Shown here piece by piece: positions 38,664 to 61,306 of a DNA stretch of 64,000 bases. Within the stretch, counting starts at the first letter, position 1. Each line of letters begins with the position of its first letter. The position numbers were made by a program, and so were the translations under genes. This DNA comes from Paenibacillus timonensis (lineage in GTDB: Bacteria > Bacillota > Bacilli > Paenibacillales > Paenibacillaceae). A model generated the notes under the pieces. That model was not told the origin of the DNA. It was given only the letters and a program-made list of their open reading frames with translations, and searched no databases. The stretch lies in contig NZ_WNZY01000004.1 of assembly GCF_009725205.1 (NCBI RefSeq), forward strand, positions 124,001-188,000, in the 5' to 3' direction.

Positions 38664-38688
38664 CAAATTACGAAATTATCTCCTATAG

Positions 38689-40998: not shown

Positions 40999-41050
40999 CC
41001 GTCTTCCTCCCGCTTATCGGCCGGAGGCCCAAACGCCGTCCGACCGTCTC

Positions 41051-42706
41051 CTAGTCATTGGCCGGTTCCATACCGGCCGCCGTATTCCCGCCGCCCGCAG
41101 ACGCCTCCTTGCAGACGCGCAGACCGCGGTACTCCTTCGGCGTCATGCCCGTGTACGTTTTGAACACGGACACGAAATACTTGTATTCCTTATAACCGAC
41201 CTTGTCCGCAATCTCGAATACCTTATCTTGCGTCGTGGCCAGCAGGTTTTTGGCCTGATCAATCCGCATCTCATTCATATACTCCGTAAACCCTTTTCCC
41301 GTGCTCTGCTTAAAAATATAACTGAAATAGCTCGGAGTGATTTTCAGCCAAGCGGCGACCTCGGAAGCCTTGAGGTCCGTGCGGTAACGGTCGACGATGA
41401 ACTTTTTCGCTTTTTCGACGATCCAGTAAGACTTGTCGATTCCGTTCTGGTCAATTAACCGCTGCAGTTCCTCCATATCCTCCAAGACCACCGTTTCAAG
41501 TCCGGCATAGGAGTTATATATATTCGGGTCCGGCTGTCCCCGGCGGGCGTAATCCAACCCGGTCATGCCGCTTTTGCGCAAGCGCTGGCGGAGCAGTGCA
41601 AACAATTCCTCGTACAGGTTCCAGAATTCCGGCAGCAAATAACCCGATTCCCGGCAAAACCGAACCATGCCCTCCACCGCCCGGCGAACTTCCTCCCGGT
41701 CCTGCTTGAAGAACGCGGATACGAGTCCTTGCACCGTCTCCGTGATATCGAACGCCGGCAGCGTCCGGCCGAACATCGCCGCATCGCCGTAGTCGGCCGT
41801 CAGGACCCGGCGCCCGTCCAGCACATGAAGCGCCAGCAGACGCACGGCTTCGGCGCAGCGATCCGCGGTTTCTTCCAGATCCTCGTATACGGAGGAAGCA
41901 CCGCCATAAATACGTCCCCCCGCTCCAGGGTCAAGCGAACCCATAGCCGAGGACAGCCTTTCGTCCCAAGCCTCCAGTTCGGCCCTTTGCTCCGAAGCCA
42001 AGAAGGTGATAAGTAAGTTTTCATGGTCGAAAACGGACAGCGCTCGAAACGGGCCAGCCTCCAGATTGCGATGCAACCCGAGCAACCAAGCTTCTTGGAT
42101 TTCTTCGAACCGCTCCGCTTCCATATCGGCAAATCGTTCGTGGAAATCGGCCAATTGGGTCGCTACGATGCGAAATTGGACGCCGTCCAGCGAAGGCGGC
42201 GGCTCTTTGCCGTACGCCGAGCCGTGCCGGGCCATGCCCGAAAGCCATAGCTCGATTTCCCGGTCTTTCTCTTCCTTATCGCCGGTCCGAATGCCGGCAA
42301 CGATTTTTTTCACGACCGAGCTCAATTCCTCGATATCGACCGGCTTCAGCAGATAGTCTTCCACGCCAAGCCGAATGGCCTGGCGTGCATATTCGAAATC
42401 CTCATAGCCGCTGATCATGACCACCTGCACCGCAGGATGCCGTTGCCGCAAATGCTTGGCCAGCTCCAGCCCGTCCATGCCGTCCATGCGGATGTCCGAA
42501 AGCACCAGTTGGACGCCATGCTCCTCGACCAGCCGCAGCGCCTCTTTTCCGTCATACGCCTCGCCTACGACTTCCACGCCCAGCTTCGTCCAGTCGATCG
42601 TATAACGCAGCCCCTCGCAGATGACCGCTTCGTCGTCCACGATCAGCATCTTCACCCGTTTACCAACGCCGGCAGGATCTATATTCGTTCCATAATCAAG
42701 ATTCAT
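41051..42706 (-). CDS. yesN: YesN-type response regulator (receiver plus AraC helix-turn-helix)
   Basis: 551 residues from ATG 42706 behind GGAGGTG, overlapping the kinase end by 11 bp. Receiver at about 17-135: KMLIVDDEAVICEGLRYTID, phospho-Asp in LVLSDIRMDGMDG, Lys in DYLLKPVDIEE. The middle 250 residues are the variable YesN linker. The C-terminal AraC region shows LKASEVAAWLKITPSYFSYI and FEIADKVGYKEYKYFVSVFK. With the upstream YesM kinase it likely senses a sugar signal and activates its own operon and two further units sharing the GGATAT promoter element. Confidence 0.92.
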   Translation of the reverse strand: MNLDYGTNIDPAGVGKRVKMLIVDDEAVICEGLRYTIDWTKLGVEVVGEAYDGKEALRLVEEHGVQLVLSDIRMDGMDGLELAKHLRQRHPAVQVVMISGYEDFEYARQAIRLGVEDYLLKPVDIEELSSVVKKIVAGIRTGDKEEKDREIELWLSGMARHGSAYGKEPPPSLDGVQFRIVATQLADFHERFADMEAERFEEIQEAWLLGLHRNLEAGPFRALSVFDHENLLITFLASEQRAELEAWDERLSSAMGSLDPGAGGRIYGGASSVYEDLEETADRCAEAVRLLALHVLDGRRVLTADYGDAAMFGRTLPAFDITETVQGLVSAFFKQDREEVRRAVEGMVRFCRESGYLLPEFWNLYEELFALLRQRLRKSGMTGLDYARRGQPDPNIYNSYAGLETVVLEDMEELQRLIDQNGIDKSYWIVEKAKKFIVDRYRTDLKASEVAAWLKITPSYFSYIFKQSTGKGFTEYMNEMRIDQAKNLLATTQDKVFEIADKVGYKEYKYFVSVFKTYTGMTPKEYRGLRVCKEASAGGGNTAAGMEPAND

Positions 42707-44498
42707 GGGGTTCACCTCCGGGATAGCAAGCCTCGGCAAAAGGGAAACGAAGCCGTACCCACGTGCCTTCGGCCGAAGTCTCTACGATCTCCAAACCGTA
42801 GTTCTGTCCGAAAAAGATCGATAGTCTTTCGTGAATGTTATGCATGGCTCCCTCCCTGGTTCCGCTGGTTCCTGTTCGCTCCAGGGCGTTCCGGATGGCT
42901 TCCGCCTTGCCGGGATCCATTCCTTTGCCGTTGTCGATGACGTCCACTCGAATTTCGCCTTCGCGGGCGTAACAGCGCACGCTCACTTCCCCGAACGGTT
43001 TGCCGCGGTCCAGGCCATGCTTGATGAAGTTCTCCACCAACGGCTGGATCGTAGCTTTCAACGTTACGGCCTCCTCGATGCCCGCCTCGGCGTGGAGGGA
43101 ATACTTCAACTTTTTCTCCCCGAGCCGACGCTGCTGCAGGTACAAGTAGGATTGGGCGAATTCCAGCTCCTTGCGCAGCGTGGTCTGATAGCTTCCGTTA
43201 TTCATGCTGGACCGGAAGAACTTCGACAGCATTTCGATCAGTTGGCTCGATTTCGTCGCCTGCTCCAATCGTGCCGTCCAACGGATCATATCGAGCGTAT
43301 TGTACAGAAAATGCGGATCCATCTGGTTTTGCATGAGCTTTAGCTCGGATTCCCGTTCCCTTAGCTCCAGCTTATATTTATGCTCGATGAGCTGCTGAAT
43401 CGTCGCGACCATCTCATTGAATTTGCGGTTTAATTCGGAAATTTCGTCGTTGGAATTGACCGGAACCCGAGCGTTGAAATCGCCGTAGGTGACTTTGCTG
43501 GTTTCTTTTTTGAGTCGCAAAATCGGTCGGATGATCGTATAGTGGAACCCGATCAATGCGGTTAACCCCAGCAGCATAATCGCCGTCAGGATGACCAGCA
43601 TCGTCATCTTGATCCCTCGGAACTCCTCGGATACCTTCGCTTCGGGAATCATGGCGACCACTTTCCAGTCGGTGTTTTCCATCCCCTTATATAGGGTCAA
43701 ATAACGCTGGCCGTTCACCTCGTACGTTAAGTCTCCCCGTCCGGACGAGAGCTTGTCCAGAAGCGGCGCTCCCGGTTGGAGCACGTCCGGCAACGGATTC
43801 TTCGATCCCAGGATCACCTGGCCTTCCGAGCCGACGATAAACACGCTCCCGGCCCCGTCCTTAAAAATCCCTTTCTCCAGTAAACCGACGATACTCGCTT
43901 CGTCCAAACGAATGATCAGCCTTCCGAGCGGTTTGGTAATCTGGCTGTAGGAGTTGAGGACGCGGAACATCGACAGGACGCGAACTTCGCCGTTCCAATC
44001 GCTATGGAGCGCATATCCTTCAGTCCAGGTAATCCCGCCTTTGCGCAACTTGGCGGCCTGTTCCCATTTTGTCTCGTCGCCGCTGAACGGCTCTCCCATT
44101 TCGATAAAGCTGCCATTGAATCCATTAACTTCGATGGATCGAATGTACCCCTTTGACATCAGTTGGAATGTTAAAAAATCCTCGATATTCCGCTTATAAG
44201 AAGCTTGCTGTTCGCTGCTGAGCGGAGGCGACGTGCGCAGAAAGTTCCGCATGTCCGGACTCAATATCAAGTAATTGGCGATATCCTCGACCATCTTGGT
44301 CTGCTCGCTGAGTTGGCCGGCGACGTTATCGAGATTTCGCTTGGTCGAATTGATGAACTGCTCCCGCAGGACCTCGTTAAATTGGATTTGCACGACCACG
44401 CCGACGCCAAACGTCGGGAGGATGACGAAGATCAAGAAGATGACAAGCGCCTTCCGCTTTAAACCAAAGCTGCCGAGCAACCTTCTATAGCCTGTCAT
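42696..44498 (-). CDS. yesM: YesM-type sensor histidine kinase
   Basis: 600 residues from ATG 44498 (GGAGGTG upstream). A membrane helix near residues 18-40, a large extracellular dCache-like sensor (to about 295), a second helix (MTMLVILTAIMLLGLTALIG), then HAMP, and a His_kinase domain with the phospho-His in LMQNQMDPHFLYNTLDMI. The HATPase contains QPLVENFIKHGL and VIDNGKGM. Such kinases respond to extracellular sugars, often with the cognate binding protein encoded just upstream, as here. Confidence 0.93.
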   Translation of the reverse strand: MTGYRRLLGSFGLKRKALVIFLIFVILPTFGVGVVVQIQFNEVLREQFINSTKRNLDNVAGQLSEQTKMVEDIANYLILSPDMRNFLRTSPPLSSEQQASYKRNIEDFLTFQLMSKGYIRSIEVNGFNGSFIEMGEPFSGDETKWEQAAKLRKGGITWTEGYALHSDWNGEVRVLSMFRVLNSYSQITKPLGRLIIRLDEASIVGLLEKGIFKDGAGSVFIVGSEGQVILGSKNPLPDVLQPGAPLLDKLSSGRGDLTYEVNGQRYLTLYKGMENTDWKVVAMIPEAKVSEEFRGIKMTMLVILTAIMLLGLTALIGFHYTIIRPILRLKKETSKVTYGDFNARVPVNSNDEISELNRKFNEMVATIQQLIEHKYKLELRERESELKLMQNQMDPHFLYNTLDMIRWTARLEQATKSSQLIEMLSKFFRSSMNNGSYQTTLRKELEFAQSYLYLQQRRLGEKKLKYSLHAEAGIEEAVTLKATIQPLVENFIKHGLDRGKPFGEVSVRCYAREGEIRVDVIDNGKGMDPGKAEAIRNALERTGTSGTREGAMHNIHERLSIFFGQNYGLEIVETSAEGTWVRLRFPFAEACYPGGEPHES

Positions 44499-44526
44499 CG
44501 CCTTCACCTCCGCCATTCGTGATGTC

Positions 44527-45357
44527 TTAGCCCTTAACCGCTCCTGCTGTCATTCCGGTAACCAATTGTTTCTGCAACAGGAGATAAAAGATAATGATCG
44601 GAATGAGCGCCATCGTTAGCGCCGCCATTTGCAGGGTGAGGCTCGCCGTCTCGATGCCGACGAAGTTGGCCAAGCCAAGCGGCAGCGTTTTGAGTGCGGA
44701 AGAGCTGATCAACACCAAGGCGAACAAGTACTCATTCCAGTTGTATATGAAGTTGAGGATGACGACGGTGGCCATCGCGGGTCTCGTGATCGGGAGAATG
44801 ATCGACCAGAAGATCCGGAAAATGCCCGCGCCGTCCATCACGCCCGATTCCTCCAAATCCTTGGGGAATCCCCGCATGAAGCCCTCCAGAATAATGATCG
44901 TTAAGGATAGGTGGAACGCCGTATACGGCAAGATTAACGATAAATGCGTATCCAGCAGATGCAATTTTTGCATGATCAGAAAGATCGGAATCAAAGTCGC
45001 ATGAATCGGCACCAGCATGCCGAGCAGAAATACGCCGTAGGTGAATCCGCGAAGCTTGAATTGAAACCGCGATAGGAAATAGGACGCCAAGGCCCCGAAA
45101 AATACGGTCACGATCAAGGAAGCAAACGTGACGAAAAGGCTGTTCAGAAAGTATACATTCATATTCGCGACCTTCCACGCCTCGGCGTAGTTGGAAAAAT
45201 GCAATGCCTCCGGGAACGAAAACGGACTGGCCGCGTATTCCTGTTCGTTTTTGAAAGAGTTGACGACCATCCAGAACAGCGGGACTATATTCATCATAGC
45301 GAATAGGCTTAGAAAAGTGTATGCAAATATTCGGAAGCCGACAGACTTCTTATTCAT
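44527..45357 (-). CDS. Carbohydrate ABC transporter permease, MalG/AraQ family
   Basis: 276 residues with six membrane segments; EAA-type loop near EESGVMDGAGIFRIFWSIIL and the C-terminal tail VTGMTAGAVKG. Start ATG follows GGAAGGAGG, 17 bp after the other permease. Second channel subunit of the importer whose binding protein starts at 47725. No ATPase gene nearby. Confidence 0.87.
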   Translation of the reverse strand: MNKKSVGFRIFAYTFLSLFAMMNIVPLFWMVVNSFKNEQEYAASPFSFPEALHFSNYAEAWKVANMNVYFLNSLFVTFASLIVTVFFGALASYFLSRFQFKLRGFTYGVFLLGMLVPIHATLIPIFLIMQKLHLLDTHLSLILPYTAFHLSLTIIILEGFMRGFPKDLEESGVMDGAGIFRIFWSIILPITRPAMATVVILNFIYNWNEYLFALVLISSSALKTLPLGLANFVGIETASLTLQMAALTMALIPIIIFYLLLQKQLVTGMTAGAVKG

Positions 45358-45374
45358 GGGTATATCCTCCTTCC

Positions 45375-46250
45375 TTAAGCTTCTTTTTCTCGGCCCAGTC
45401 GATTCACCAGGGAGATGACGATCAAGCTGAACAGCAGAATCAGGATCGACACGGCACTGCCGTATCCGTAACGCATGTTCATGAAGGCGCTGTTGTACAT
45501 GTGAATCGTCATGACCTCGGTTTGATGCGCCGGACCGCCGCCCGTCAGGATCTGAATCAGGTCGAAGACGCGGAAGGAGTTACTGATACTGTAGACGACC
45601 CCAACCATAAGCGTGCTGCGAATCATCGGAATCGTAATGCGAAAGGTGCGTTTGAGCCCGGTGGCTCCATCCAGTTCGGCTGCTTCGTTCACCTCGTCGG
45701 GGATGTTCTGCAGCGCGGCCAGGAAAATCACCATGTATAGTCCGCAGTTCTGCCAGATGTACGCAATGCTGATCGACAGCATCGACCACCGGTCGTCGCC
45801 GAGCCAATTTTGCTTCCAGCCGTCTAGGCCGATGATACTCAGCAGATTGTTCAGCATCCCGTACTCCGTGTTATAAACCATGCCCCAGATCAGGGACACC
45901 ATGACGGATGATATCACGACCGGCATGAAGCCAACCGTCCGGAAAAATCCGGAGCCTTTGAGTCCGCGGTTGAGCAGAAGCGCAAGCAATAGACCAAGCG
46001 GAATTTGGCCGATCAAGCCGGTCACCATGATGATGATGTTATTTTTGACGGATAGCCAGAAGGTGTCATCGCCCAGGATCTTCACGAAATTATCAAGGCC
46101 GACGAACTTCATCGAACCGATGCCGTTCCAATCCATCACCGAATAGTACAGAGACATTCCGATCGGAACGATGGCAATGCCCAGATAGATGATTAACGCC
46201 GGAAACAACCCGATAAAGATCGCCAGTTTCGTGCCTCGTAACGTTTGCAC
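45375..46250 (-). CDS. Carbohydrate ABC transporter permease, MalF/AraP family
   Basis: 291 residues, start GTG 46250 behind GGAGGG. Six membrane helices; the EAA loop is EAAELDGATGLKRTFRITIP. Pairs with the downstream permease. An inverted repeat in the 149-bp gap from the binding-protein gene may set expression ratios. Confidence 0.87.
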   Translation of the reverse strand: MQTLRGTKLAIFIGLFPALIIYLGIAIVPIGMSLYYSVMDWNGIGSMKFVGLDNFVKILGDDTFWLSVKNNIIIMVTGLIGQIPLGLLLALLLNRGLKGSGFFRTVGFMPVVISSVMVSLIWGMVYNTEYGMLNNLLSIIGLDGWKQNWLGDDRWSMLSISIAYIWQNCGLYMVIFLAALQNIPDEVNEAAELDGATGLKRTFRITIPMIRSTLMVGVVYSISNSFRVFDLIQILTGGGPAHQTEVMTIHMYNSAFMNMRYGYGSAVSILILLFSLIVISLVNRLGREKEA

Positions 46251-46306
46251 CAGAGGTTCCCTCCTTTTCCTTTATGTCGAATCTAGGTTCAAGCCCGATG
46301 AATGAA

Positions 46307-46329
46307 GAAAACCCGGGATTCGGGTTTTC
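46307..46329 (-). promoter_or_regulatory. Intercistronic hairpin between binding protein and permease
   Basis: Perfect 9-bp stem GAAAACCCG/CGGGTTTTC with a 5-nt loop. The following bases on the minus strand are only moderately T-rich (TTCATTCATC), so partial termination or mRNA end protection is likelier than a stop. Confidence 0.6.
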
Positions 46330-46399
46330 TTTCACGCATCGATTTTGAAAGACGTAAGCGCAAGTTTGATCGCGAATATAGAATGCCTACTCTTCTTCG

Positions 46400-47725
46400 T
46401 TAATTGCTGCTATAGTTCTCCATGGCTTCCTGAACTTCCTTAGCCAGCTCTTCTGGAGTGCCGCGGCCCACGGTCAAGGCTTGCAATCCGTTTTGCAGGA
46501 CGTCCACCACTTGCGTAGGAATAACGCTATCGAATACCGGGGCTGTACCGCCACCTGTCAGCGATAGCATTTCTTTCAGATATGGGCTGGCGTCTTCGGG
46601 AATTTCTACCTTAGCGGGCACGACCACCCCGTTGCGGATCAACTCTTTATACAGATCTTCGCTCACGAAAAACTTCAAGAACTCCTCGGCAGCCGCTTTT
46701 TTCTTCTCGTCGAGCCCGTTCTTGATAGCGATGCCGTATTGCACGATCCCGGCGCTCTTCTTCGGATCGCCTTTGCCGCCTTCTACGCTTGGGAACAGAG
46801 CGATGCCGAATTTATCTCCCTCTTCGTTGTTAATCCGTACTCGTCCATCGACGGTTGCGGAGGAAATATGCATGGCTGCCTTCCCTTGAATGAAGTAGTC
46901 CTGGCCTTGAACGGAGTCCATGTTGTTGGCGTCCGTATTGAAGGCACCCAACTTCGTCAGCTCATCGATGACCGAAAGCGCCTTGACGAACTCAGGGTCG
47001 GTGAACTTCGCTTTGCCTTCAAGCACGGCCGGAAGGAAATCGCTTCCGGTGAACCTGTCGCCGATGATGGAAATATAAGACGATTGCAGCGGCCATTGCT
47101 CTTTATTGCCGAGCGAAATCGGGGTAATCCCCGCCGCTTTCAGCTTCTTCACTGCATCGATGAATTTATCGTAGGTGTCGGGGAATTGATCGTAACCCAC
47201 TTGAGCGAACATCTCTTTGTTGTAATAAATGATGTCTACGAAGTTTTGCTTGGTCGGTACCGCATATTGCTGTCCGTCCACGTTAAATCCGGCTAACGCG
47301 GCCTCCGGCAGAATGGAGCCCCAGTTGTCCATCAGATCGTTGATCGGCTGAAGCAAATTACCGGCAACAAGCGGCGACAAATCCGCCCCTGGCCATACGA
47401 CGTTGATATCGGACAGGTTGTTGGCGGCCGCTAACGTGCGTAGCTTGGTTTTGTATTGGGCGGATGGTACGCCGTCTTGCTTAATTACGATGTTCGGGTG
47501 CTGCTTTTCGAACTCGGCGATCCGCGCTTTGTAGACTTCGTTGTCCACGTTCGGGGAAGTCCAAGGATGCATCATGTTTAAGGTAATCGTCTCCGCTTCG
47601 CCTGCGCCGCCGGAGTTGTTGTTGCTGCCCGCCGCGTTTTCGTTACCGCAAGCCGCCGTGAACAATGCCAGCACCGCAACCAAACCGAGCAGTACCGCTT
47701 TATTGCCTCTGTGTTTTTTGCCCAT
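46400..47725 (-). CDS. Sugar-binding lipoprotein of ABC importer
   Basis: 441 residues from ATG 47725. Signal peptide with lipobox ALFTAACG (Cys about residue 27), then a Ser/Asn/Gly-rich linker and a family 1 binding fold: LNMMHPWTSPNVDNEVYKAR, YAVPTKQNFVDIIYYNKEMF, YGIAIKNGLDEKKKAAAEEF. First gene of the importer-YesMN-GH3 operon. Its promoter carries the GGATAT element shared with GH130 and the DUF4127 operon. Ligand unknown; GH3 and GH130 suggest a beta-linked gluco- or manno-configured oligosaccharide. Confidence 0.88.
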   Translation of the reverse strand: MGKKHRGNKAVLLGLVAVLALFTAACGNENAAGSNNNSGGAGEAETITLNMMHPWTSPNVDNEVYKARIAEFEKQHPNIVIKQDGVPSAQYKTKLRTLAAANNLSDINVVWPGADLSPLVAGNLLQPINDLMDNWGSILPEAALAGFNVDGQQYAVPTKQNFVDIIYYNKEMFAQVGYDQFPDTYDKFIDAVKKLKAAGITPISLGNKEQWPLQSSYISIIGDRFTGSDFLPAVLEGKAKFTDPEFVKALSVIDELTKLGAFNTDANNMDSVQGQDYFIQGKAAMHISSATVDGRVRINNEEGDKFGIALFPSVEGGKGDPKKSAGIVQYGIAIKNGLDEKKKAAAEEFLKFFVSEDLYKELIRNGVVVPAKVEIPEDASPYLKEMLSLTGGGTAPVFDSVIPTQVVDVLQNGLQALTVGRGTPEELAKEVQEAMENYSSN

Positions 47726-47767
47726 AGTCAACCCTCTTCTCTTGTTTTTTGGATCTAGTCCTTAAAC

Positions 47768-47806
47768 ATAACAGGAAATGATCACTTTTGTTTCCTTACC
47801 TGTTAT
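47768..47806 (-). promoter_or_regulatory. Inverted repeat in the 5' leader of the binding-protein mRNA
   Basis: ATAACAGG/CCTGTTAT arms, 23 nt apart, begin right at the expected transcription start (about 47807) of the operon, so the mRNA would open with a hairpin or the DNA could bind a repressor. Confidence 0.5.
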
Positions 47807-47813
47807 ATTACCT

Positions 47814-47866
47814 ATTATAAAAGCTGCATCGATTCGACTATATCCTATAAATCTTCGATTATATCC
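47814..47866 (-). promoter_or_regulatory. Promoter of the ABC-YesMN-GH3 operon with paired GGATAT element
   Basis: On the minus strand: GGATAT (47861-47866), second GGATAT 21 bp later (47840-47845), then 20 bp and TATAAT (47814-47819). The proximal half site abuts the -35 position and no good -35 hexamer is present, as expected for an AraC/YesN-activated promoter. Confidence 0.75.
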
Positions 47867-47915
47867 GAAATATCTAGCTGGTTTTGATGTTTTTTATGCC
47901 GCTTTCAGAAAACAA

Positions 47916-47927
47916 TGTTATATAACA
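47916..47927. promoter_or_regulatory. Palindrome TGTTATATAACA
   Basis: Perfect 12-bp palindrome 50 bp upstream of the GGATAT pair, in the gap between GH130 and the binding-protein gene. May be an additional operator; no second copy of the exact word was noticed. Confidence 0.35.
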
Positions 47928-47990
47928 TAACATTTATTTTTCACTAACCGGTGCCTTTTCCCTTTTCAACCTCTTTCAGTAAGCGGTTGC

Positions 47991-48030
47991 AAAAATCGCT
48001 CTTGGAATAACCGCTTGATGCGGTCATTCC
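47991..48030 (-). terminator. Terminator of the GH130 gene
   Basis: Stem GGAATAACCGC/GCGGTCATTCC with one mismatch and a 5-nt loop, followed at short distance on the minus strand by GATTTTTGC. It lies 19 bp after the GH130 stop. Confidence 0.6.
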
Positions 48031-48048
48031 AATGGAGGCATTAGCAGT

Positions 48049-49068
48049 TTAGGCCTGTGGATCATTCAGGATATAATCAACGAGTTCCTCGACCGGCACA
48101 GTCGCCAGCGCGATCGCCGTATCGGTCACCCCGTAGTAAATGTAAAGCAGTCCGTCTTTAACGACGTTCCCTGTCGGGAAAACCACGTTTGGAATCTGAT
48201 ACCCGAATTTTTCGTAATACGTTTCCGGTTCCATGATGAAGTTTTGGGTGCGGGCGATGACCTTCTCCGGGTTCTCCAGATCCAGCAGCATGGCGCCGAC
48301 ACGGTAGACCACCTCGTCGTCCACACCGTGATACAACACGAGCCACCCGCGATCCGTCCGTACCGGTGGTGTCGAACCGCCGATTTTGCGCGACTCCCAC
48401 GCCATGTTTTCCGCTTTCGCCAGCAACTTCGGCTCCTCCCAGTGGATCAGATCCTCCGAATAGGTGATCCACATCGCCGCTTTTTCCGTCCCGTACGCTT
48501 CGCCCACATATTCCTCCGGCCGGCGTAACAACACGAACTTGCCGTTAATTTTCTCCGGAAACAGGATGTTATCCCGATCGTTGATCTCCAGCGGGGTCGT
48601 GTCGGCCACGAACTCCCAATCGATCAGGTTCTTAGAGGCGAGGATCGACGAACGCGTCAGCCAATGGCCTTCCTGTTCGCCCCAACCGTCTGGGTACTCG
48701 GGGATCGAACGCTCCGGGACCCCTCGGCCTGTCGGGTAATAGCTCATCGCACACGGACGAAGCGCATAATTCAGGTAAAACGTATCGTCGATTTTCACGA
48801 TCCGTGGATCTTGCACGCTGCCATACGGGAAACCGAGCATGTCCGGCGTAACGATCGGCTCGTCCTTCACATGGGTGAAATGCACGCCGTCTTCGCTTTC
48901 CAGAAGGCCCAGGTAGTTTTTGCACGGCGTCAGCGATCCTGCCGTCCGTTCAATCATATAGAACTTACCGTTATCCATGATCACCGCCGGATTGAATACG
49001 GTTACTTTTCTCCATTCGAAACCTCCCGGTACCACGATCGGATTTTCCGGATGCCTCGTTATCTTCAT
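48049..49068 (-). CDS. Family GH130 beta-mannoside phosphorylase or hydrolase
   Basis: 339 residues, no signal peptide, five-bladed propeller. Opening KITRHPENPIVVPGGFEWRK and FNPAVIMDNGKFYMIERTAG are typical GH130; the catalytic Asp is probably in SVQDPRIVKIDDTFYLNYA, and RKIGGSTPPVRTDRGWLVLY and YYGVTDTAIALATVPVEEL complete the family core. Members phosphorolyse beta-mannosides such as mannobiose or mannosyl-N-acetylglucosamine; some hydrolyse. The phosphate-binding residues could not be judged by eye. It has its own GGATAT-type promoter and lies between the importer operon and the amino-sugar-acid operon. Confidence 0.9.
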   Translation of the reverse strand: MKITRHPENPIVVPGGFEWRKVTVFNPAVIMDNGKFYMIERTAGSLTPCKNYLGLLESEDGVHFTHVKDEPIVTPDMLGFPYGSVQDPRIVKIDDTFYLNYALRPCAMSYYPTGRGVPERSIPEYPDGWGEQEGHWLTRSSILASKNLIDWEFVADTTPLEINDRDNILFPEKINGKFVLLRRPEEYVGEAYGTEKAAMWITYSEDLIHWEEPKLLAKAENMAWESRKIGGSTPPVRTDRGWLVLYHGVDDEVVYRVGAMLLDLENPEKVIARTQNFIMEPETYYEKFGYQIPNVVFPTGNVVKDGLLYIYYGVTDTAIALATVPVEELVDYILNDPQA

Positions 49069-49111
49069 CTGTGTTCCTCCTCATGAAACCCTTTGTAAGT
49101 GCTTTAATGCT

Positions 49112-49164
49112 ATTATAGCTTTGGCTATCCGGAGGAAATATCCCATAAACTTTCGAAAACATCT
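49112..49164 (-). promoter_or_regulatory. GH130 promoter with paired GGATAT element
   Basis: Minus-strand AGATGT (49159-49164), GGATAT 21 bp later (49138-49143), 20 bp, then TATAAT (49112-49117). Spacing is identical to the promoters at 47814 and 55845; the distal half site is the least conserved. Confidence 0.75.
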
Positions 49165-49189
49165 GAATAATTCGGATCGTTTGGTGCGA

Positions 49190-49364
49190 TTATACTCGGT
49201 ATTTCGCATATATTTAGTCGCTAACGCCAAAAAGTTCGGATTCTATTCGAAATATCATCTATAATCGCGACTTTTCACTCACCGGGACTTCAATCTGTAT
49301 GAAATTTCATATATATTCCGCGAAAATCACCGGGCACGGCGAATTGTACTCGGTTTTTCGCATA
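49190..49364. repeat. Pair of direct repeats TACTCGGT-TTTCGCATA
   Basis: Two 21-bp words at 49190-49210 and 49344-49364 agree at 18 positions. They lie in the 362-bp gap between the GntR gene and GH130; the second abuts the GntR terminator. Function unknown; operator or degenerate dispersed repeat. Confidence 0.55.
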
Positions 49365-49403
49365 AAAAAACCAGATCGTTGCGCAATCAGGGCAACGATC
49401 TGG
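49364..49403 (-). terminator. Terminator of the amino-sugar-acid operon
   Basis: Perfect 12-bp stem CCAGATCGTTGC/GCAACGATCTGG with a 9-nt loop and seven T residues on the minus strand, 28 bp after the GntR stop. Confidence 0.92.
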
Positions 49404-49430
49404 GGCCTAGAGTTCATTCGACCAGCCGCG

Positions 49431-50144
49431 TTACGCGTCATAATCGACGATGTAAGCTTGCTGCTCCGTATTGTAGTAGCCGACGCTGTATTCGGCCAAG
49501 CTTCCCTGAACATCCCGCGAATAGCGCGACCGCTTCAATACGGGTACCCCGTCGGTTAACCGCAGGAACCGCTTCGCCTCGCCCGGCGGAAGGGTCACCG
49601 CAAATTCGTCCCGGAGCTTGTCCAGCGACACGCCCCACTCCTCCAGCACTTCGTAAAGCGAATGATCGCGGAAATCGTCGAGATCCGGTTCTTTCCGGGG
49701 AGTCTTCACGTAATGCTCGTAAAAAATATAAGGCTGGCCGTCGAGATAATACGCGCGTTCCAGCTTCAAGCAACGCTCCCCGAACATCCCGTGGAGCTCG
49801 GAGCCCGCGTCGTTCCGCACCGTTTCAGCACGGAGCCACTCCTTGCGGATTTGATGGTTCTCCTCCACCAGAATCTCCGTGAAGTGCTTCCACTTGGACC
49901 ACTTGGAGGCCGCCTTATTGCGGATCACTTTGGTGCCTTTGCCGCTGCCCTTCTCCAGGTAACCTTCCTGGACGAGCTCCTGAATCGCGCCGCGGACGGT
50001 GATTTTACTGACGGCGAATTCCTCCTCCAGTTGAGGCTCGGAAGGGATATTCGATCCGAGCGGGTAAACGCCATATAAGATGCGATCCTTCAGGATATTT
50101 TTGATTTGCAAATATAACGGTCGATCTTTACGGGACAAATTCAT
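49431..50144 (-). CDS. GntR-family regulator with UTRA effector domain
   Basis: 237 residues from ATG 50144 (AGGAAGAGG upstream). Winged helix at 1-70 (PLYLQIKNILKDRILYGVYP, EEEFAVSKITVRGAIQELVQ), UTRA fold from about 95 (LKLERAYYLDGQPYIFYEHY, GVPVLKRSRYSRDVQGSLAE), as in NagR/DgaR-like regulators that sense sugar phosphates. Last gene of the operon, so self-controlling; palindromes at 54171-54195 are candidate sites. Probably senses an amino-sugar-acid or ketodeoxy acid intermediate. Confidence 0.88.
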   Translation of the reverse strand: MNLSRKDRPLYLQIKNILKDRILYGVYPLGSNIPSEPQLEEEFAVSKITVRGAIQELVQEGYLEKGSGKGTKVIRNKAASKWSKWKHFTEILVEENHQIRKEWLRAETVRNDAGSELHGMFGERCLKLERAYYLDGQPYIFYEHYVKTPRKEPDLDDFRDHSLYEVLEEWGVSLDKLRDEFAVTLPPGEAKRFLRLTDGVPVLKRSRYSRDVQGSLAEYSVGYYNTEQQAYIVDYDA

Positions 50145-50154
50145 GGCCCTCTTC

Positions 50155-51174
50155 CTACCTTTCCACATCACCGGCGGCGGATTGCTCCATCGCCCGGAGG
50201 ATCTCCGCCTCCGTCGCCATCGGGGTATCGCCCGGCACGGTATGCGCCAGCATGCCCGCCGCCGCCGCGAACCGGACGGTTCGCTCCGGGGCGAAGCCCT
50301 CTAGCTCGCCGTGGATAATCCCACTCGCAAAAGCGTCCCCCGCCCCTATTCTATCATAGACGGAAAAGGTCAGCCGATCAGAGTAAACGAGCCGCTCCCC
50401 CTTGTAGAGAAATCCGCGCAGCGAATGGGAATTGTCGCCGTGGATCTGGCGATGCGTTCCGGCAATCGCGGAAATGCCGTAGCTTTCCGCCACGACCGGA
50501 ATCAGCTCCGCCAGTTGATCCTCCCGTTCCTGCAGGGCCGTGGTCATCCCCAGGGTAAGCATCGCGTCCTGTTCGTTCATCATCACGATGTCTGCTAGCC
50601 GCAGCATCGTTTCGTAATGCGGTTTAGCTTTGGCATACCCGCCTTCCCCCCAAAGGGACGGGCGGTAATTGCAGTCGAAAATCACCTTGCCCCCCTGCCG
50701 CTTGACCGCTTCGGCGAACGATTTCATGTGCGCCCGCACGCCGTCGTTTATCGCCAGCGTAATCCCGCAGAAATGGACCGCATCGATCCCGGCGGCGATT
50801 TCCGCGAAATCGTAGGTTCCTTCAGGCGCGGTGTTAAAGCTGCTGTCCAACCGGTTCGAGTATGTCACGCGACTAGGCCGCACGCCAAAGCCGTTCTCCA
50901 AGAAGTACATGCCAACGTACTTGCCTCCTCGCAGGACGCGCGAGGTATCGATACCCAGTTTGCGCAGGTAGGCCGAAGCGGCGCCTCCAAGCGGATTGTC
51001 CGGCAACCGCGTAACCAGCGAACCGGCATGCCCGTAACGGGACAAGGCCGATGCGACGTTGACGCCGGTGCCCGAAAAGGAATATTTCAACGTATCGCCC
51101 TGCGCCAACGTTTCGTAACCCGGCACCTGCAGGCGCATCATGACTTCGCCGAAGGCTGCTATGCGTTTAGGCAT
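50155..51174 (-). CDS. PfkB-family sugar kinase, probable 2-keto-3-deoxygluconate kinase
   Basis: 339 residues; ATG 51174 overlaps the end of the aldolase gene (ATG 51180 also possible). PKRIAAFGEVMMRLQVPGYE and FSGTGVNVASALSRYGHAGS are ribokinase-fold entry motifs; the catalytic Asp lies in YDRIGAGDAFASG. Coupling to a KDPG-type aldolase implies phosphorylation of 2-keto-3-deoxygluconate. In the Salmonella glucosaminate pathway a PTS does the phosphorylation; the kinase here would replace it. Confidence 0.85.
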   Translation of the reverse strand: MPKRIAAFGEVMMRLQVPGYETLAQGDTLKYSFSGTGVNVASALSRYGHAGSLVTRLPDNPLGGAASAYLRKLGIDTSRVLRGGKYVGMYFLENGFGVRPSRVTYSNRLDSSFNTAPEGTYDFAEIAAGIDAVHFCGITLAINDGVRAHMKSFAEAVKRQGGKVIFDCNYRPSLWGEGGYAKAKPHYETMLRLADIVMMNEQDAMLTLGMTTALQEREDQLAELIPVVAESYGISAIAGTHRQIHGDNSHSLRGFLYKGERLVYSDRLTFSVYDRIGAGDAFASGIIHGELEGFAPERTVRFAAAAGMLAHTVPGDTPMATEAEILRAMEQSAAGDVER

Positions 51175-51922
51175 AAGCATCCGCCAGCTTTTTCATGACT
51201 TTCGTCAGCAGCAGCACATCTTCGGTGCGGGTGTTGCCGGTCGCTTTGTCGATGATGGACGTATACACATGCGGAATTACCTGCGGAACGCCGGCTTCCA
51301 AGGCGATGCGCAGGATCGCTTCGAAGTTGTCCAGGTCAATGCCGCCTGTCGGTTCCAGTGCAAAATCTGCCTTGGCACAGGCGGCTGCCACGGCGCGAAG
51401 CTCTTCTTCACGGCTGAGCCCCTGCATCGGGAAGTATTTGAGCGCATTGCCGCCCATATCGCGCACCAGCGCGATCGCCGCTTCGACCGGAACGATCGCC
51501 TGGTTCTCCTGGGCGGCGCTGATTGGGCCAGTGGAAATGTTCACGTAACCCGCTTGCCCCGTCGGTGAAACCAAGCTATTAATCCAGCTGTCTTGCGTGC
51601 CGAGGTTTGCCCGGGTCGCCCCAACAGCCGGGAACACCTGGTTGATGTGGCTGCCGGGGTAATACTTGGCGATTTCCGCAACGACCGCCGCCTGGCGGTT
51701 ATCGCCGGCGCCCAGGCCGATCGAAACTGCATCGTCGATCTCCCGGCCGTACGCTTTCATCGCCGTGACGGCTTCCTGGGCAGTGGGGTAGTCTTTAGAT
51801 AATACCCCGACGAGAACGTATCCTTCCGCGGCTTCGAACACTTCTTTGGCGTTCGGAATGTCTTTGGCCAATACATTGAGAGCTACCCGTTTTTTATAAA
51901 ATCGTTTTGCAATCTGCGACAT
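51167..51922 (-). CDS. dgaF: DgaF-type 2-keto-3-deoxy-6-phosphogluconate aldolase
   Basis: 251 residues from ATG 51922 behind AGGAGG. RVALNVLAKDIPNAKEVFEA, FPAVGATRANLGTQDSWINS, GYVNISTGPISAAQENQAIV and EPTGGIDLDNFEAILRIALE match the DgaF/EF_0839 family, distinct from classical Eda. It splits the phosphorylated ketodeoxy acid into pyruvate and glyceraldehyde-3-phosphate. It starts 2 bp beyond the DgaE stop. Confidence 0.88.
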   Translation of the reverse strand: MSQIAKRFYKKRVALNVLAKDIPNAKEVFEAAEGYVLVGVLSKDYPTAQEAVTAMKAYGREIDDAVSIGLGAGDNRQAAVVAEIAKYYPGSHINQVFPAVGATRANLGTQDSWINSLVSPTGQAGYVNISTGPISAAQENQAIVPVEAAIALVRDMGGNALKYFPMQGLSREEELRAVAAACAKADFALEPTGGIDLDNFEAILRIALEAGVPQVIPHVYTSIIDKATGNTRTEDVLLLTKVMKKLADAYA

Positions 51923-51923
51923 C

Positions 51924-53027
51924 TTAACGTCCTCCTGCCAATTCGCGTATTTTTTCGGCAATCACCTGGATATCGTCCCCCATCAGCGGGCGCGGATCGA
52001 TATCGAAAAACCCTTGTCTGACGCCGTAATCCCGGGTATAAATCGCAATATCTCCGGTTTGCAGCGCATGAACCATTTCCTTCGCGTTAATGCCGGCCTG
52101 CTGCGGATCAACCTGCACCCGTGCCCGGTAAATCGCCCGTCCGGCTTCGTCCTGCACGATCGAAACCCGGATTCCCGGGAGATCGCTAAGCGGCATCAGC
52201 GTCTGCAAAGCCGCCTTTTCCCGCTCGCTGTGGTCAGGCTTGACGGCGTACTCATCCAGGGCCTGCAGCAGGCCGAAGGATGTTTCCTTGCCGACCTTCA
52301 TGCTCCGTCCAATGCCGTGCAACTGCACCTTCACCCATTCGATATAGGTACGTTTCCCGGCGACGATTCCGGAGGTCGGGCCTTCGATCGCCTTGGATCC
52401 GCTATAAATCGCCAAATCGGAGAACTTCACGTACTTTTGCAGATCCTCTTCCGCGGCCGCGTCCACGATCATCGGCACGTGGTTCCGTTTCGCCACCTCC
52501 CACGCTTCTTCGACGGAGATCATGTTCTTCTGCACCGCATGATGCGATTTCACGTAGAGGATCGCCGCCGTTTTCTCACCGATCGCGTCTTCGAAATGTT
52601 CCGCCCGTCCTTCGTTGGCATAGCCCACTTCCACCAATTTGCCGCCGCCGAGGTAAACCATCGTTTCCACCGGAGCGCCGTATTGCACGTTGTGGCCCTT
52701 CAGGATAAGGATTTCGTTACGGGGAATCTCGTCCTGGTGCAAACGCAAGCTCTTGCGCCGATCGCCTTGTGTCACGATCGCCGCTACCGACAAGGCGATG
52801 CCGCTAGATGCCGAGTTCACGATCACTGCCGCCTCCGAACCGATGTGCTTGGCGACATAGTCCCCCGCCTTATCGACCAGATCGGCGATTTCGACGTAGC
52901 TCTGGCCGCCTCGCTTCATCGCCTCCATCACGGTATCGCTCGGTGCAGATACGCCGAGGATGCTCATCCGCCCGCTGGCGTTGATGACGCGTTTAAGCCC
53001 GTACTTCGCATTCAATGAACTTTCCAT
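51924..53027 (-). CDS. dgaE: DgaE-type PLP-dependent ammonia lyase (SelA-related)
   Basis: 367 residues. KYGLKRVINASGRMSILGVS and AAVIVNSASSGIALSVAAIV are SelA-like; the PLP Lys is in LAIYSGSKAIEGPTSGIVAG. The family eliminates ammonia from D-glucosaminate-6-phosphate to give the 2-keto-3-deoxy acid. With a downstream kinase instead of a PTS, the substrate here may be unphosphorylated glucosaminate or a relative. It overlaps the amidohydrolase gene by 35 bp. Confidence 0.87.
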   Translation of the reverse strand: MESSLNAKYGLKRVINASGRMSILGVSAPSDTVMEAMKRGGQSYVEIADLVDKAGDYVAKHIGSEAAVIVNSASSGIALSVAAIVTQGDRRKSLRLHQDEIPRNEILILKGHNVQYGAPVETMVYLGGGKLVEVGYANEGRAEHFEDAIGEKTAAILYVKSHHAVQKNMISVEEAWEVAKRNHVPMIVDAAAEEDLQKYVKFSDLAIYSGSKAIEGPTSGIVAGKRTYIEWVKVQLHGIGRSMKVGKETSFGLLQALDEYAVKPDHSEREKAALQTLMPLSDLPGIRVSIVQDEAGRAIYRARVQVDPQQAGINAKEMVHALQTGDIAIYTRDYGVRQGFFDIDPRPLMGDDIQVIAEKIRELAGGR

Positions 53028-54105
53028 GGATGATCGCTCCTTTTACTTCAATATGGCGATTCGAAACGCGCCGTTCTCCTTCCGAATCAATCAATTCCGT
53101 CGGTTCCTCCTTGACGGCAAATAAGGTCAAATTAGCCGGATCCCCGACCCGAATGCGGCCGAGCTCTTCTCTGCCCAGCCAATGCGCGGCGCGAGTGGTC
53201 ACCGCCGCGATGACCTCTTCAAGCGGATAGCCGAGATAGAGGAATTTGCTTAGCACGTTCGCCATGCTATACACCGGACCGTTCAGCCGGTTACCCCGAT
53301 AAATGTCGGTGCTGATCGTATCCGGGTTGATGCCGTGCCGCTTGGCCGCCTCGGCCACCCGGAAGGAGAAGCTCGCTGTGCCGTGGCCCACGTCGAGATG
53401 CACGCCCCGGCTGATGGCTTCGGTCAACACCGGAAGCGGTTCGCCTGATGCGTCGAACAGATTGTTCGCTTTGCCGTTGAGATAATGGGTAATGATATCT
53501 TTTCGCTGCAGCAGCGGAACCACCTCCCGGATATCGGGCGGAGCCGAACCGATGTGCACCATGAGCGGCATTCCCGTCTCAAGTGACAACTCCCGCGCGA
53601 TACGCAGCGGCTCTACGCCGTTCTCCCGAACCACGCTTTGACTGATCCTCGCTTTCAGGCCGACGATCGAGTCGCTGTAATCCGCTAGCGCTGCTTTGAT
53701 CCGATCGCGGTCGATCCAGGCCAATTGGGACAGTTCGTCGATGCGTTTCAACCCGATCCGCGAGATGTTCAAGAACGCCAACAGGTTGGTGGCGGATCGT
53801 TTCCCGCTCGCCACTAGATCGCCGATTCGGTCCGCACCGCAGCTGCCGGCGTCCACGATCGTCGTAACGCCTTGCTTCGCGCCGATCTCATCGATTTCAT
53901 CGCCGTACGGATCGAATTCTGGAAAAGCGTGAACATGCATATCGATCCAGCCGCTGGATACGTAAAGGGACGATCCGTCCCATTCCCGATCGCCGCGAGC
54001 TAGGCCGGCTCCGGTGATCTCGGCGATTTTTCCGTCCTCGATCACGATGTCGATCTCTTCCCCGTTCACTTTCTTCAGATGGCGGAGAACAATTCTTTCC
54101 TTCAT
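52993..54105 (-). CDS. Amidohydrolase/deacetylase-family metallohydrolase (EF_0837 type)
   Basis: 370 residues. The metal site begins with SSGWIDMHVHAFPEFDPYGD; further residues are a possible carboxylated Lys in SIVGLKARIS, His in PLMVHIGSAPPD and ITHYLNGKAN, and Asp in HLDVGHGTASF. NLTLFAVKEEPTELIDSEGE is the terminal beta-sandwich. This family travels with DgaE and DgaF; deacylation of an N-acyl amino-sugar acid is the best guess. Start ATG follows AGAGGCG; a small gap with two palindromes separates it from the DUF4127 gene. Confidence 0.85.
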   Translation of the reverse strand: MKERIVLRHLKKVNGEEIDIVIEDGKIAEITGAGLARGDREWDGSSLYVSSGWIDMHVHAFPEFDPYGDEIDEIGAKQGVTTIVDAGSCGADRIGDLVASGKRSATNLLAFLNISRIGLKRIDELSQLAWIDRDRIKAALADYSDSIVGLKARISQSVVRENGVEPLRIARELSLETGMPLMVHIGSAPPDIREVVPLLQRKDIITHYLNGKANNLFDASGEPLPVLTEAISRGVHLDVGHGTASFSFRVAEAAKRHGINPDTISTDIYRGNRLNGPVYSMANVLSKFLYLGYPLEEVIAAVTTRAAHWLGREELGRIRVGDPANLTLFAVKEEPTELIDSEGERRVSNRHIEVKGAIIHGKFIECEVRA

Positions 54106-54170
54106 TGGGTTCGCCTCTTTTTAATAGATCGTTGTCATGCTTACGGTTGGGTTTAGCATAACACGGAAAA

Positions 54171-54195
54171 ATTCTCTTGAGAATATAACGTTATA
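54171..54195. promoter_or_regulatory. Adjacent palindromes upstream of the amidohydrolase gene
   Basis: ATTCTC-TT-GAGAAT (54171-54184) runs directly into ATAACGTTAT (54185-54194; TATAACGTTATA with flanks). This looks like an internal operator, perhaps for the operon's GntR protein, lying 5 bp beyond the DUF4127 stop. Confidence 0.55.
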
Positions 54196-54199
54196 ATGT

Positions 54200-55774
54200 T
54201 TATGTGTGAAGTGCATCGAATCCTTCGAACGTCAGCTCAAACCCCACCTCAAACATGCGTCTCCACGGAAAATGCAGCCCGCTTAGCCGAATCCGACCTT
54301 CCTTTATATCCGCAAAATAGTGCGATGCCGCTCGGTTCATTTTCTCCGCTAAAATCGCCTCAGCCTGCCCCAAGCAATGCTCCAGCACATAGTAGCTCGC
54401 GTTCAGTCCGGGAAGGTCGTTCGCCAGCATGTCTTGCCGCACCAGCGACTGATACAGGAAATCTTCTGCCAGACGGTGGTAATAAAAAACACGACTCGCC
54501 TCATATGCCTTCGCCAACTCGCCCTGCGCCCAGCGATTCGCGTAATAAGAAGCAATCACCAAGTGGGCCACCACCGTTCCCAGCGTGTTCCCTGACGTAT
54601 TCCAGCCGGCGTAGGACGTTAATTGGTCCAACTGTCCTTTTTGCTGCAGCAGGTTTATCAGCACCGGATCGCCACCGTTGCACGTCGCCACGTCGCCTAA
54701 TGCGACCAGTTTCCCTTTGCGCAAGTAAGCCCCCATCGCTTCGGCAAACTCCCGATAATGAATTTCCGAGAAATAGGTGCGATGCCGTTCCTGGAACGGG
54801 ATTTGCTCGGCCATCCCCGCCTGGTCGACCGCCGGCGAGTGAACGAGAAGCACTAAATCCGTCTCTGCGGAATGGTCGGCCAGGACGGCTCCCGCCGCGG
54901 TAATCTGCGATTTGACGCTTTCGTTCAGGCTGCGGTCTTCGTATTTCGGCTTGATCCGCGGACCCAGGGTTGAAGAATAACGCACAAAAATCTCCGGCTT
55001 GTACTGTTTCAATTCCCCGAAAATGCGGGCAAACATTGTGCAGCCTACCTCGTCTGCCCCTGGGTAGATCAAGACCTTATCCAGCACGTTCAACGCTTCC
55101 ACGCGGCAAACCATCATTTGCTGTTCCGCCCGAGAGAAGCCGTATTGGGAATTGTCGTCCAACGGGACAACCAGATGGTCGATCACGCCTTCGCGGACCA
55201 GGGTCAATGCGTGCTGATTTACTTGTTGGTTGACGGCACGCCGCTCCAAAAAATCGCCTAAATCGGCTTTCGGGATGAACCGCGTGACATCCTCCAGTTC
55301 TCGTTGTTCCGCCGGGGTCAATACCTCCTGCTCCGCTTTGTCCGTCAAGTAACTGTATTTGAATATTTGCCCGCCGTGAAATTTGTAATAATCCGGCTCT
55401 TCTTCGTCTTTATTATTGTTTGGCACGCGCATAATTAAGTTAAAGGCGTGAATCTTGATGCCGGGGTAATGCCGTTTGACTTCCCCTAATACCGCCAACC
55501 GCCGCAAGCACTCCTTCAGAGATAAATGATGCAGCCGGGATGGCACGATCCCCCCGTAAACGAGCAGATCGATCGAGACAAGCAAATAATCCGCACCTTC
55601 CGCGGCCTCGAGCAGCCATTCCCGAAGCGCAGTCGTATTCGCCGGGCGTTTCTTGTTCCCGAGCATCGAACGGTCCGGAACGACGAGCGTTACGTCCGTC
55701 ATCCGCGCCAGCTGCCTGGGAAACCCCTCGTTGCACGGCCTTTCGTCCAGCGGCACATAAACCACTTTAGCCAT
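54200..55774 (-). CDS. DUF4127 family protein of unknown function
   Basis: 524 residues from ATG 55774 (GGAAGGAG upstream). No signal peptide or membrane helix. Recognisable conserved blocks: VVYVPLDERPCNEGFPRQLA at the N terminus, LLVSIDLLVYGGIVPSRLHH, VVPLDDNSQYGFSRAEQQMM, YPGADEVGCTMFARIFGELK, GDVATCNGGDPVLI and SYAGWNTSGNTLGTVVAHLV. The repeated Asp/Asn/His-rich motifs look like an enzyme active site. First gene of the operon with amidohydrolase, DgaE, DgaF, kinase and GntR, under a GGATAT-type promoter. A hydrolytic or processing step on the pathway substrate is an inference only. Confidence 0.8.
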   Translation of the reverse strand: MAKVVYVPLDERPCNEGFPRQLARMTDVTLVVPDRSMLGNKKRPANTTALREWLLEAAEGADYLLVSIDLLVYGGIVPSRLHHLSLKECLRRLAVLGEVKRHYPGIKIHAFNLIMRVPNNNKDEEEPDYYKFHGGQIFKYSYLTDKAEQEVLTPAEQRELEDVTRFIPKADLGDFLERRAVNQQVNQHALTLVREGVIDHLVVPLDDNSQYGFSRAEQQMMVCRVEALNVLDKVLIYPGADEVGCTMFARIFGELKQYKPEIFVRYSSTLGPRIKPKYEDRSLNESVKSQITAAGAVLADHSAETDLVLLVHSPAVDQAGMAEQIPFQERHRTYFSEIHYREFAEAMGAYLRKGKLVALGDVATCNGGDPVLINLLQQKGQLDQLTSYAGWNTSGNTLGTVVAHLVIASYYANRWAQGELAKAYEASRVFYYHRLAEDFLYQSLVRQDMLANDLPGLNASYYVLEHCLGQAEAILAEKMNRAASHYFADIKEGRIRLSGLHFPWRRMFEVGFELTFEGFDALHT

Positions 55775-55844
55775 ATTGCCACTCCTTCCCGTTAGCCTGA
55801 TTCCCATCGAAAAACAGCGCATAGCTCATCGTACGCCTAATGTA

Positions 55845-55897
55845 ATCTTAGCTTTCCGGGAGTCTGGGAAATATCCCACGGATTTACGATAATATCC
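55845..55897 (-). promoter_or_regulatory. Promoter of the DUF4127 operon with paired GGATAT element
   Basis: Minus-strand GGATAT (55892-55897), GGATAT 21 bp later (55871-55876), 20 bp, then TAAGAT as -10 (55845-55850). Geometry is identical to the promoters at 47814 and 49112. Confidence 0.75.
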
Positions 55898-55906
55898 GAA
55901 AAATGC

Positions 55907-55938
55907 AAAAAGGGCCGTTCGCCAAGGCGAAACGGCCC
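55907..55938 (-). terminator. Terminator after the WYL mini-protein gene
   Basis: GGGCCGTT..CGCC/GGCG..ACGGCCC stem with five T residues on the minus strand, 16 bp beyond the stop. It separates the lysis module from the DUF4127 operon. Confidence 0.88.
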
Positions 55939-55953
55939 AAAACAAGGGAAGGC

Positions 55954-56157
55954 TCAGGAGGCATGATGCCGTCCTTTTGCCACAGGAATACAAGCCAAAA
56001 TATTCTCCATTCGAAAAGCCCGAGGCGCATGGGAAGCCAGACAGGTCGCCCGAACTATACCCTCACGCACATCGTGCACCTCGATCCGCCGCTGGGTGAT
56101 CTTGCCCTCGCGGTCGACGTAGATGATTTCTACGGTCCGGCCGATGTATTTTTCCAC
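55954..56157 (-). CDS. WYL-like mini-protein
   Basis: 67 residues from GTG 56157, placed 9 nt after GGAG; an ATG three codons earlier sits too close to that site. GRTVEIIYVDREGKITQRRI followed by REGIVRATCLASHAPRAFRM resembles the core strands of a WYL domain, a ligand-sensing fold normally attached to a DNA-binding domain. Here it stands alone, last in the lysis module. Role unknown. Confidence 0.65.
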   Translation of the reverse strand: MEKYIGRTVEIIYVDREGKITQRRIEVHDVREGIVRATCLASHAPRAFRMENILACIPVAKGRHHAS

Positions 56158-56267
56158 CCGAATCATCTCCAAATAAGAACGTTTGTTTGTATTATATGCA
56201 AACATGTGTTCTTTATTCAACTGGAAAATAAAACAGGGGGTATCGTGTTAAGGCAACAGACGCTACG

Positions 56268-61151: not shown

Positions 61152-61306
61152 CGACAATCACTCCTTATTCTGGACGTGCCAATGTTAATTTTTTCCACAT
61201 TCTAATCATACAGTGATCCTATTCCCTCCCTAGCAGAAATATGTTCTGGCGAAACGGTTCATTTCCCAATAAAATCCGATGATTTCGGAGAAAATAACTT
61301 CAAGAG

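Follow-up and report, generated by a model that had tools for sequence, protein, structure and literature searches.

A conserved tandem half-site element at three neighboring promoters of Paenibacillus timonensis and its candidate YesN-type activator

In Escherichia coli, the activator AraC recognizes two direct half-sites at araI1-I2 that are placed one 21-bp step apart, with the promoter-near one touching the -35 position and the second one weaker. YesN/AraC-type response regulators also occur together with glycan genes, as described for XydR and CuaR of Ruminiclostridium cellulolyticum (PMC3572039, PMC10384115). The accessible parts of these reports list common repeats for XydR with no site fixed, state that its own genes are not regulated by XydR, and call cuaDSR constitutive. 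For pneumococcus, the part of PMC11034029 available to us proposes CTWWWWWWAG at N39-60 from the start as a candidate for RR07 and gives no clear repeat for the pneumococcal YesN. Here we describe an element that is shared by three promoters (A, B and C) within a 64,000-nucleotide stretch of Paenibacillus timonensis DNA (contig NZ_WNZY01000004.1, positions 124,001 to 188,000 of the forward strand; hereafter the window, in whose coordinates all positions are given unless a related locus is named). Sequence comparison makes it very probable that A, B and C are binding sites of the YesN-type response regulator encoded in the operon behind promoter A.

This operon (operon A) is on the minus strand and consists, in gene order, of a substrate-binding protein, two permeases, YesM, YesN and GH3. 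Upstream of it lie GH130 and then the operon DUF4127-amidohydrolase-DgaE-DgaF-PfkB-GntR (operon C), all on the minus strand. A preliminary description of this DNA had proposed a common element at the three promoters, and this is confirmed: each has two half-sites 21 bp apart with a TCGNA block between them, followed by 20 bp and a -10. The E values given with the sites come from profile R1, a sequence-only model trained on the A and B sites (56 in total) found in 33 related loci; the sites of the window and all C sites were left out of it.

47866-47814, minus strand: site A, promoter of the substrate-binding protein-permease-permease-YesM-YesN-GH3 operon; reads GGATAT-AATCGAAGATTTATA-GGATAT-N20-TATAAT from 47866; R1 profile E = 1.0e-12
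47866-47861, 47845-47840 and 47819-47814, minus strand: distal half-site, proximal half-site and -10 (TATAAT, preceded by N20) of site A
49164-49112, minus strand: site B, promoter of GH130; reads AGATGT-TTTCGAAAGTTTATG-GGATAT-N20-TATAAT from 49164, with TCGAA between the half-sites; R1 profile E = 7.2e-13
55897-55845, minus strand: site C, promoter of the DUF4127-amidohydrolase-DgaE-DgaF-PfkB-GntR operon; reads GGATAT-TATCGTAAATCCGTG-GGATAT-N20-TAAGAT from 55897; R1 profile E = 2.9e-7, held out of the model

The TCGNA block falls at the fixed place claimed for it, as TCGAA in A, TCGAA in B and TCGTA in C. The half-sites are GGATRTWWTCGAA-like and directly repeated at 21 bp, start to start, and in site A both half-sites contain GGATAT..TCGAA. 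The earlier term 'GGATAT-like' was correct: the distal half-site of B, AGATGT, matches GGATAT at 4/6 positions, and the B sites of relatives keep RGAYRT or RGATGA. If the -10 begins at -12, then the proximal GGATAT extends from -38 to -33 and the distal one from -59 to -54. A search for sigma-70-type promoters in 38500-56300 gives 12 matches (10.2 expected by chance), none of them on A, B or C; these promoters lack a TTGACA-like -35. The AraC-type geometry proposed earlier, with half-sites two turns apart, the proximal one over the -35 (start positions are computed) and no good -35 hexamer, is strongly supported by the comparison of species. The flanks of A, B and C differ from one another.

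The genome is a 5.12-Mb Paenibacillus genome, and the proteins closest to its YesN (90% identity) are from P. timonensis and Paenibacillus mellifer. A search with YesN gave 76 loci, of which the closest 33 were taken for comparison (L031-L063; Paenibacillaceae, YesN-like protein 44-90% identical). As background we used the remaining 43, most of which match in the receiver only; their 674,857 bases contain no match of at least 10 bits. An ungapped scan finds the element in 33/33 YesN loci, before the importer operon in 25/33 and before GH130 in 31/33. Positions that are invariant in the 56 sites include the GA of the distal half-site, the T of TCG, and the GGAT and last T of the proximal half-site. 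Site C was compared across 30 fetched loci with DUF4127 genes; at no more than 5 mismatches of 22, it precedes 10/10 close DUF4127 genes (69-100% identity, our own included) and 0/20 distant ones (56% identity or less). The -10 of these C sites is TAAGAT or TAATAT. In the rearranged loci L044 and L045 the sites follow the catabolic genes, with the element before the amidohydrolase in the former and before DgaF in the latter, and in two genomes with no DUF4127 match (L171, L172) a C-type element stands before the amidohydrolase.

The content of the putative regulon varies between species. In L178, an extra YesN-type site (position 307) precedes both an alanine-racemase/D-serine-dehydratase-like gene and an amidohydrolase gene from a different family; in L175, an extra site (position 12108) lies 1.2 kb upstream of an amidohydrolase gene of this kind. 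A second YesN-type site that resembles the amidohydrolase site of L044 is present 139 bp upstream of the GH130 site in L173 (position 10118) and L174 (position 9789).

Within its own genome the element is rare. The exact pair GGATAT-N15-GGATAT is present twice in the window, where 100 shuffles gave a mean of 0.00. The genome as a whole has 7 copies, so that the pair alone is not unique and is a weak test. An R1 search of all 5.12 Mb is significant at B, A and C, and the next match has E = 0.215. Thus, the element does not stand before many unrelated genes, an outcome that would have spoken against a dedicated regulon, and all three of its significant genome sites are in this locus. A further, weak candidate at 61261-61287 of the window, with 3 mismatches and located before a cupin gene, was rejected: a -10 is lacking at the required distance, and the profile matches of at least 8 bits in the window do not include it. 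CcpA cre sites with one mismatch appear in six rows (four places) in the window, none of them near A, B or C.

The distribution of the element among genomes connects it to YesN. A YesN match at E<=1e-100 is present in 27 of the 146 genomes searched; R1 finds a site at E<=1e-4 in 25 of these 27 versus 0/119 genomes without YesN, and at E<=1e-3 a partial match appears in one YesN-less genome (G080). The best control for this link is provided by GH130 copies outside the locus. Of 15 such copies (72-95% identical), seven come from genomes that lack YesN and eight are second copies in genomes that have it. None of the 15 has a site of at least 14 bits; the copies of G050 and G078 (about 60%) were left out of this set. 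Genomes G075 and G085 (L185, L186) have the amidohydrolase-Dga genes and GH130, and both YesN and the element are absent there. Across 44 loci, with some genomes counted twice, the mean identity of YesN is 0.84 in the DNA-binding domain, 0.75 in the receiver and 0.50 in the middle. At 26 recognition-helix positions, whose spans in YesN we assume to be placed as in the AraC layout, YesN orthologs agree at 17-26, and other AraC-family proteins of the genome share at most 15 with YesN (77 aligned of 84 fetched). Three nearby regulators were compared (YesN, GntR and the AraC at 37539). YesN alone is compatible with every locus, although the presence of YesN was also how the loci were selected. Co-occurrence in genomes, the conserved sites and the GH130 control together strongly support the shared regulon that the preliminary description had proposed with YesN as its candidate regulator.

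Several points weigh against this assignment. The proximal half-sites of B and C do not contain the full TCGAA, their second block being degenerate. The scan of the 33 loci was ungapped and required TATAAT, so its spacings and -10 are search conditions. Because the loci were picked for YesN and site A heads the yesN operon, co-occurrence is partly built in. The searched genomes also overlap the loci on which R1 was trained, and A and B matches are expected there by construction; since several genomes are training loci, presences say less than absences. In addition, the filters of the genome search lose some weak matches. The two YesN genomes with no site at E<=1e-4, G115 and G119, have YesN proteins that are 41-43% identical; G115 has a weaker, 21.9-bit site before GH130, and the G119 stretches that were read yielded no site. 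YesN is by far the best candidate for binding and activating A, B and C, and the gene order suggests that yesMN is auto-activated.

Four other explanations can be considered. The geometry fits the AraC family and not a single member of it, and the genome holds 85 AraC-type HTH_18 matches (HTH, helix-turn-helix), YesN included, so the element might be bound by another activator of this family that is encoded elsewhere, with YesN fitting merely by gene position. This is unlikely, given that 0/77 aligned AraC-type domains of the genome share the recognition helices of YesN and that at E<=1e-4 none of the 119 YesN-less genomes has the element. A one-component AraC gene (37539-38414) does lie near the locus, 275 bp past the end of GH3, but it was rejected as the binder, since it is found in only 5/33 loci, always with a fucose isomerase. 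The GntR/UTRA regulator (49431-50171) is encoded within the regulon, often adjacent, and it could in principle bind the half-sites. Loci L044, L045, L049 and L050 make this very improbable, because they keep the sites and the Dga genes while the stretches fetched for them contain no GntR gene, and non-palindromic direct repeats over the -35 are generally unlike GntR operators.

The remaining two explanations need no common activator. GGATAT at the -35 place, at a fixed distance from the -10, is what one might expect if the element were the recognition sequence of an alternative sigma factor; however, A and B have an ordinary TATAAT -10, the second half-site 21 bp further up and the TCGAA block are out of a sigma factor's reach, and there are just three significant genome sites, all near one regulator. 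We consider this reading highly doubtful. As A, B and C all fall within about 8 kb, their likeness might instead come from a recent duplication of upstream DNA with no common regulator, to which we give almost no credence. The conservation pattern already contradicts it: the flanks differ, yet the element is kept at each promoter across species with YesN down to 44% identity.

If YesN is the activator, then an extracytoplasmic ligand would lead YesM to phosphorylate YesN, which could then bind the tandem half-sites with the promoter-near one over the -35 position. YesN might recruit RNA polymerase with sigma A in this way and stand in for the missing -35. A half-site over the -35, together with no consensus -35, is in keeping with an AraC-type protein that recruits sigma A polymerase. 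A single signal would induce the importer and GH3, the GH130 phosphorylase and the DUF4127-Dga operon, and would raise yesMN too. Operon A may also respond to nitrogen supply through a GlnR/TnrA-type box.

The genes of the locus are as follows.

38689..40998, minus strand: GH3 glycosidase, last gene of operon A (domain match)
41051..42739, minus strand: YesN-type response regulator (receiver and AraC HTH), candidate binder of A, B and C (domain matches, alignment)
42696..44516, minus strand: YesM-type sensor kinase with dCache, HAMP and His_kinase (domain matches)
44527..47731, minus strand: ATP-binding cassette importer, made up of two permeases and a substrate-binding protein
44527..45357, minus strand: permease (domain match)
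45375..46250, minus strand: permease (open reading frame position and conserved gene order only)
46400..47731, minus strand: substrate-binding protein (domain match)
48049..49068, minus strand: GH130, mannoside phosphorylase family (Pfam and NCBIfam comparison)
49431..54105, minus strand: GntR/UTRA regulator, PfkB kinase, DgaF-type aldolase, DgaE-family ammonia lyase and EF_0837-type amidohydrolase/deacetylase (family matches)
49431..50171, minus strand: GntR/UTRA regulator, within operon C
54200..55822, minus strand: DUF4127 protein, first gene of operon C (domain match)

YesN matches PF00072 (receiver) and, C-terminally, PF12833 (AraC HTH), both above cut-off, and its gene adjoins that of the YesM-type kinase with His_kinase PF06580. 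GH130 is above the Pfam family cut-off; its closest named relatives are beta-1,2-mannobiose and oligomannan phosphorylases, which it matches below the NCBIfam curated cut-off. The DgaF, DgaE subfamily and EF_0837 amidohydrolase models are passed, and the narrower D-glucosaminate-6-phosphate lyase model is not reached. A guess at the substrate is a beta-mannoside linked to an N-acetylated amino-sugar acid. DUF4127 (54200-55822) heads a conserved catabolic operon, and no mention of it was found in the literature searched, which was mostly outside subscription journals. Upstream of GH130, a 22-bp sequence is repeated (91%) 154 bp apart, at 49189-49210 and 49343-49364. Two of the element-free GH130 copies elsewhere (L182-L196, 72-95% identical) were tested for neighbors and lie near GH38 (L183) and near GH125 (L192). 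The copies in L183 and L185 stand beside AraC-HTH proteins of 776-780 amino acids.

Promoter A has two additional features.

47915..47933, minus strand: dyad ATGTTA-N7-TAACAT that fits the GlnR/TnrA consensus and starts 67 bp upstream of the distal half-site of A
47765..47809, minus strand: predicted hairpin in the leader, directly behind the -10 of promoter A, with the arms of the inverted repeat at 47765-47781 and 47793-47809

The dyad, ATGTTATGTTATATAACAT, is a strict match in the window scan to TGTNA-N7-TNACA, which is given as the GlnR/TnrA box in the accessible part of PMC9948412. At A, 11/25 relatives have a strict match, and in nine of these its position agrees to within 1 bp; the count is 0/30 at B and 0/10 at C. 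The 25 whole A loci contain 15 strict matches in 502,539 bases. In our own genome the consensus is found 48 times versus 26 for a reversed control. A MerR-family gene directly precedes a glutamine synthetase gene there, and two of the matches stand before this pair (C52) and one before a second glutamine synthetase gene (C2). We prefer GlnR as the putative binder of the dyad, on the grounds that the dyad fits its consensus and that the glutamine synthetase genes serve as a control. Nitrogen control is plausible for a route that includes an ammonia lyase (DgaE family) and a deacetylase-type amidohydrolase. The strict dyad is also present in 11/15 A loci where an adjacent GntR gene was found and in 0/10 where none was found (three of these ten stretches end at a contig end), an association that possibly speaks for GntR or for common descent. 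The predicted leader hairpin has 12 pairs, 5 of them with changes on both sides in 17 sequences, and several pairs are broken in some sequences.

The same geometry may exist in other parts of the genome. Here 24 stretches were examined that surround further long AraC-HTH genes, judged YesN-type by open frames of 520-589 amino acids only; 10-bp direct repeats at a spacing of 21 occur in 5/82 gaps. This is the top of 69 spacings (the other 68 have a mean of 1.35 and a maximum of 4), and 0/300 mononucleotide shuffles reach 5 at spacing 21. The 10-mer test is exploratory, as it was picked after stricter tests had been seen, and one of the five gaps (L296) is simple-repeat-like. A hexamer pair at spacing 21 followed by N20 and a -10 gives 2 matches in 172 upstream regions (24 stretches and the window), one of which is site A; this is not significant, the background mean being 1.25 over all spacing/distance cells. 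From this exploratory analysis, direct repeats with a 21-bp spacing appear to be enriched around further regulators of this type in the genome. One case is at 13550-13640 of L302 (C22 of the same genome), where a GH4 gene is preceded by two copies of CATTCCTCCATAC, 21 bp apart, and then by TATATT after another 20 bp. These repeats are 13 bp long, and the GH4 promoter is divergent from a one-component AraC gene; the geometry is the same and the half-site is another. Direct repeats spaced 21 bp also lie upstream of lipoprotein-like genes (probable substrate-binding proteins) in L289, L295 and L311.

We tentatively suggest a wider reading, which is rather less likely to be true than not, in which AraC/YesN regulators of Paenibacillus follow a general grammar (21 bp, about 20 bp to the -10, letters set by the recognition helices) and operon A is controlled by both YesN and GlnR. 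If this is true, then the regulons of many YesMN systems could be read from sequence, and operon A would join substrate induction (YesN) and nitrogen control (GlnR) at one promoter.

The kind of system described here, AraC-type activation over the -35 by a YesN-type response regulator, is known. The operator and regulon look new within the literature searched: the element is not described in its accessible parts, PMC10766802 and PMC9722767 included, with subscription journals mostly outside the search. In the accessible parts of the reports on YesN-type regulators that were compared, no clear operator is fixed, and the present one is base-defined, conserved and found at three significant genome places. 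It ties an uncharacterized catabolic route (GH130, GH3, DUF4127, deacetylase and Dga enzymes) to one sensor, and what YesM senses becomes a question for reporter assays with three ready promoters.

As at araI1-I2, A, B and C have direct half-sites 21 bp apart with the promoter-near one over the -35, and in B and C, as in araI2, the proximal half-site has a degenerate second block. The half-site letters differ from those of AraC, and AraC binds arabinose itself, whereas YesN is a response regulator. The dyad of promoter A resembles the GlnR/TnrA box (PMC9948412, as far as accessible) in its strict match and in the occurrence of the same consensus before both glutamine synthetase genes, a likeness at the sequence level. 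The pneumococcal RR07 and YesN systems, as covered by the accessible part of their report, share with this locus the YesMN type and a motif search by species comparison, and the present element differs from the CTWWWWWWAG candidate. XydR and CuaR, as far as their reports are open, are similar in combining a receiver and AraC HTH regulator and a kinase with glycan enzyme or importer genes; unlike in those systems, yesMN here belongs to the operon that is putatively regulated, and the site is resolved to single bases.

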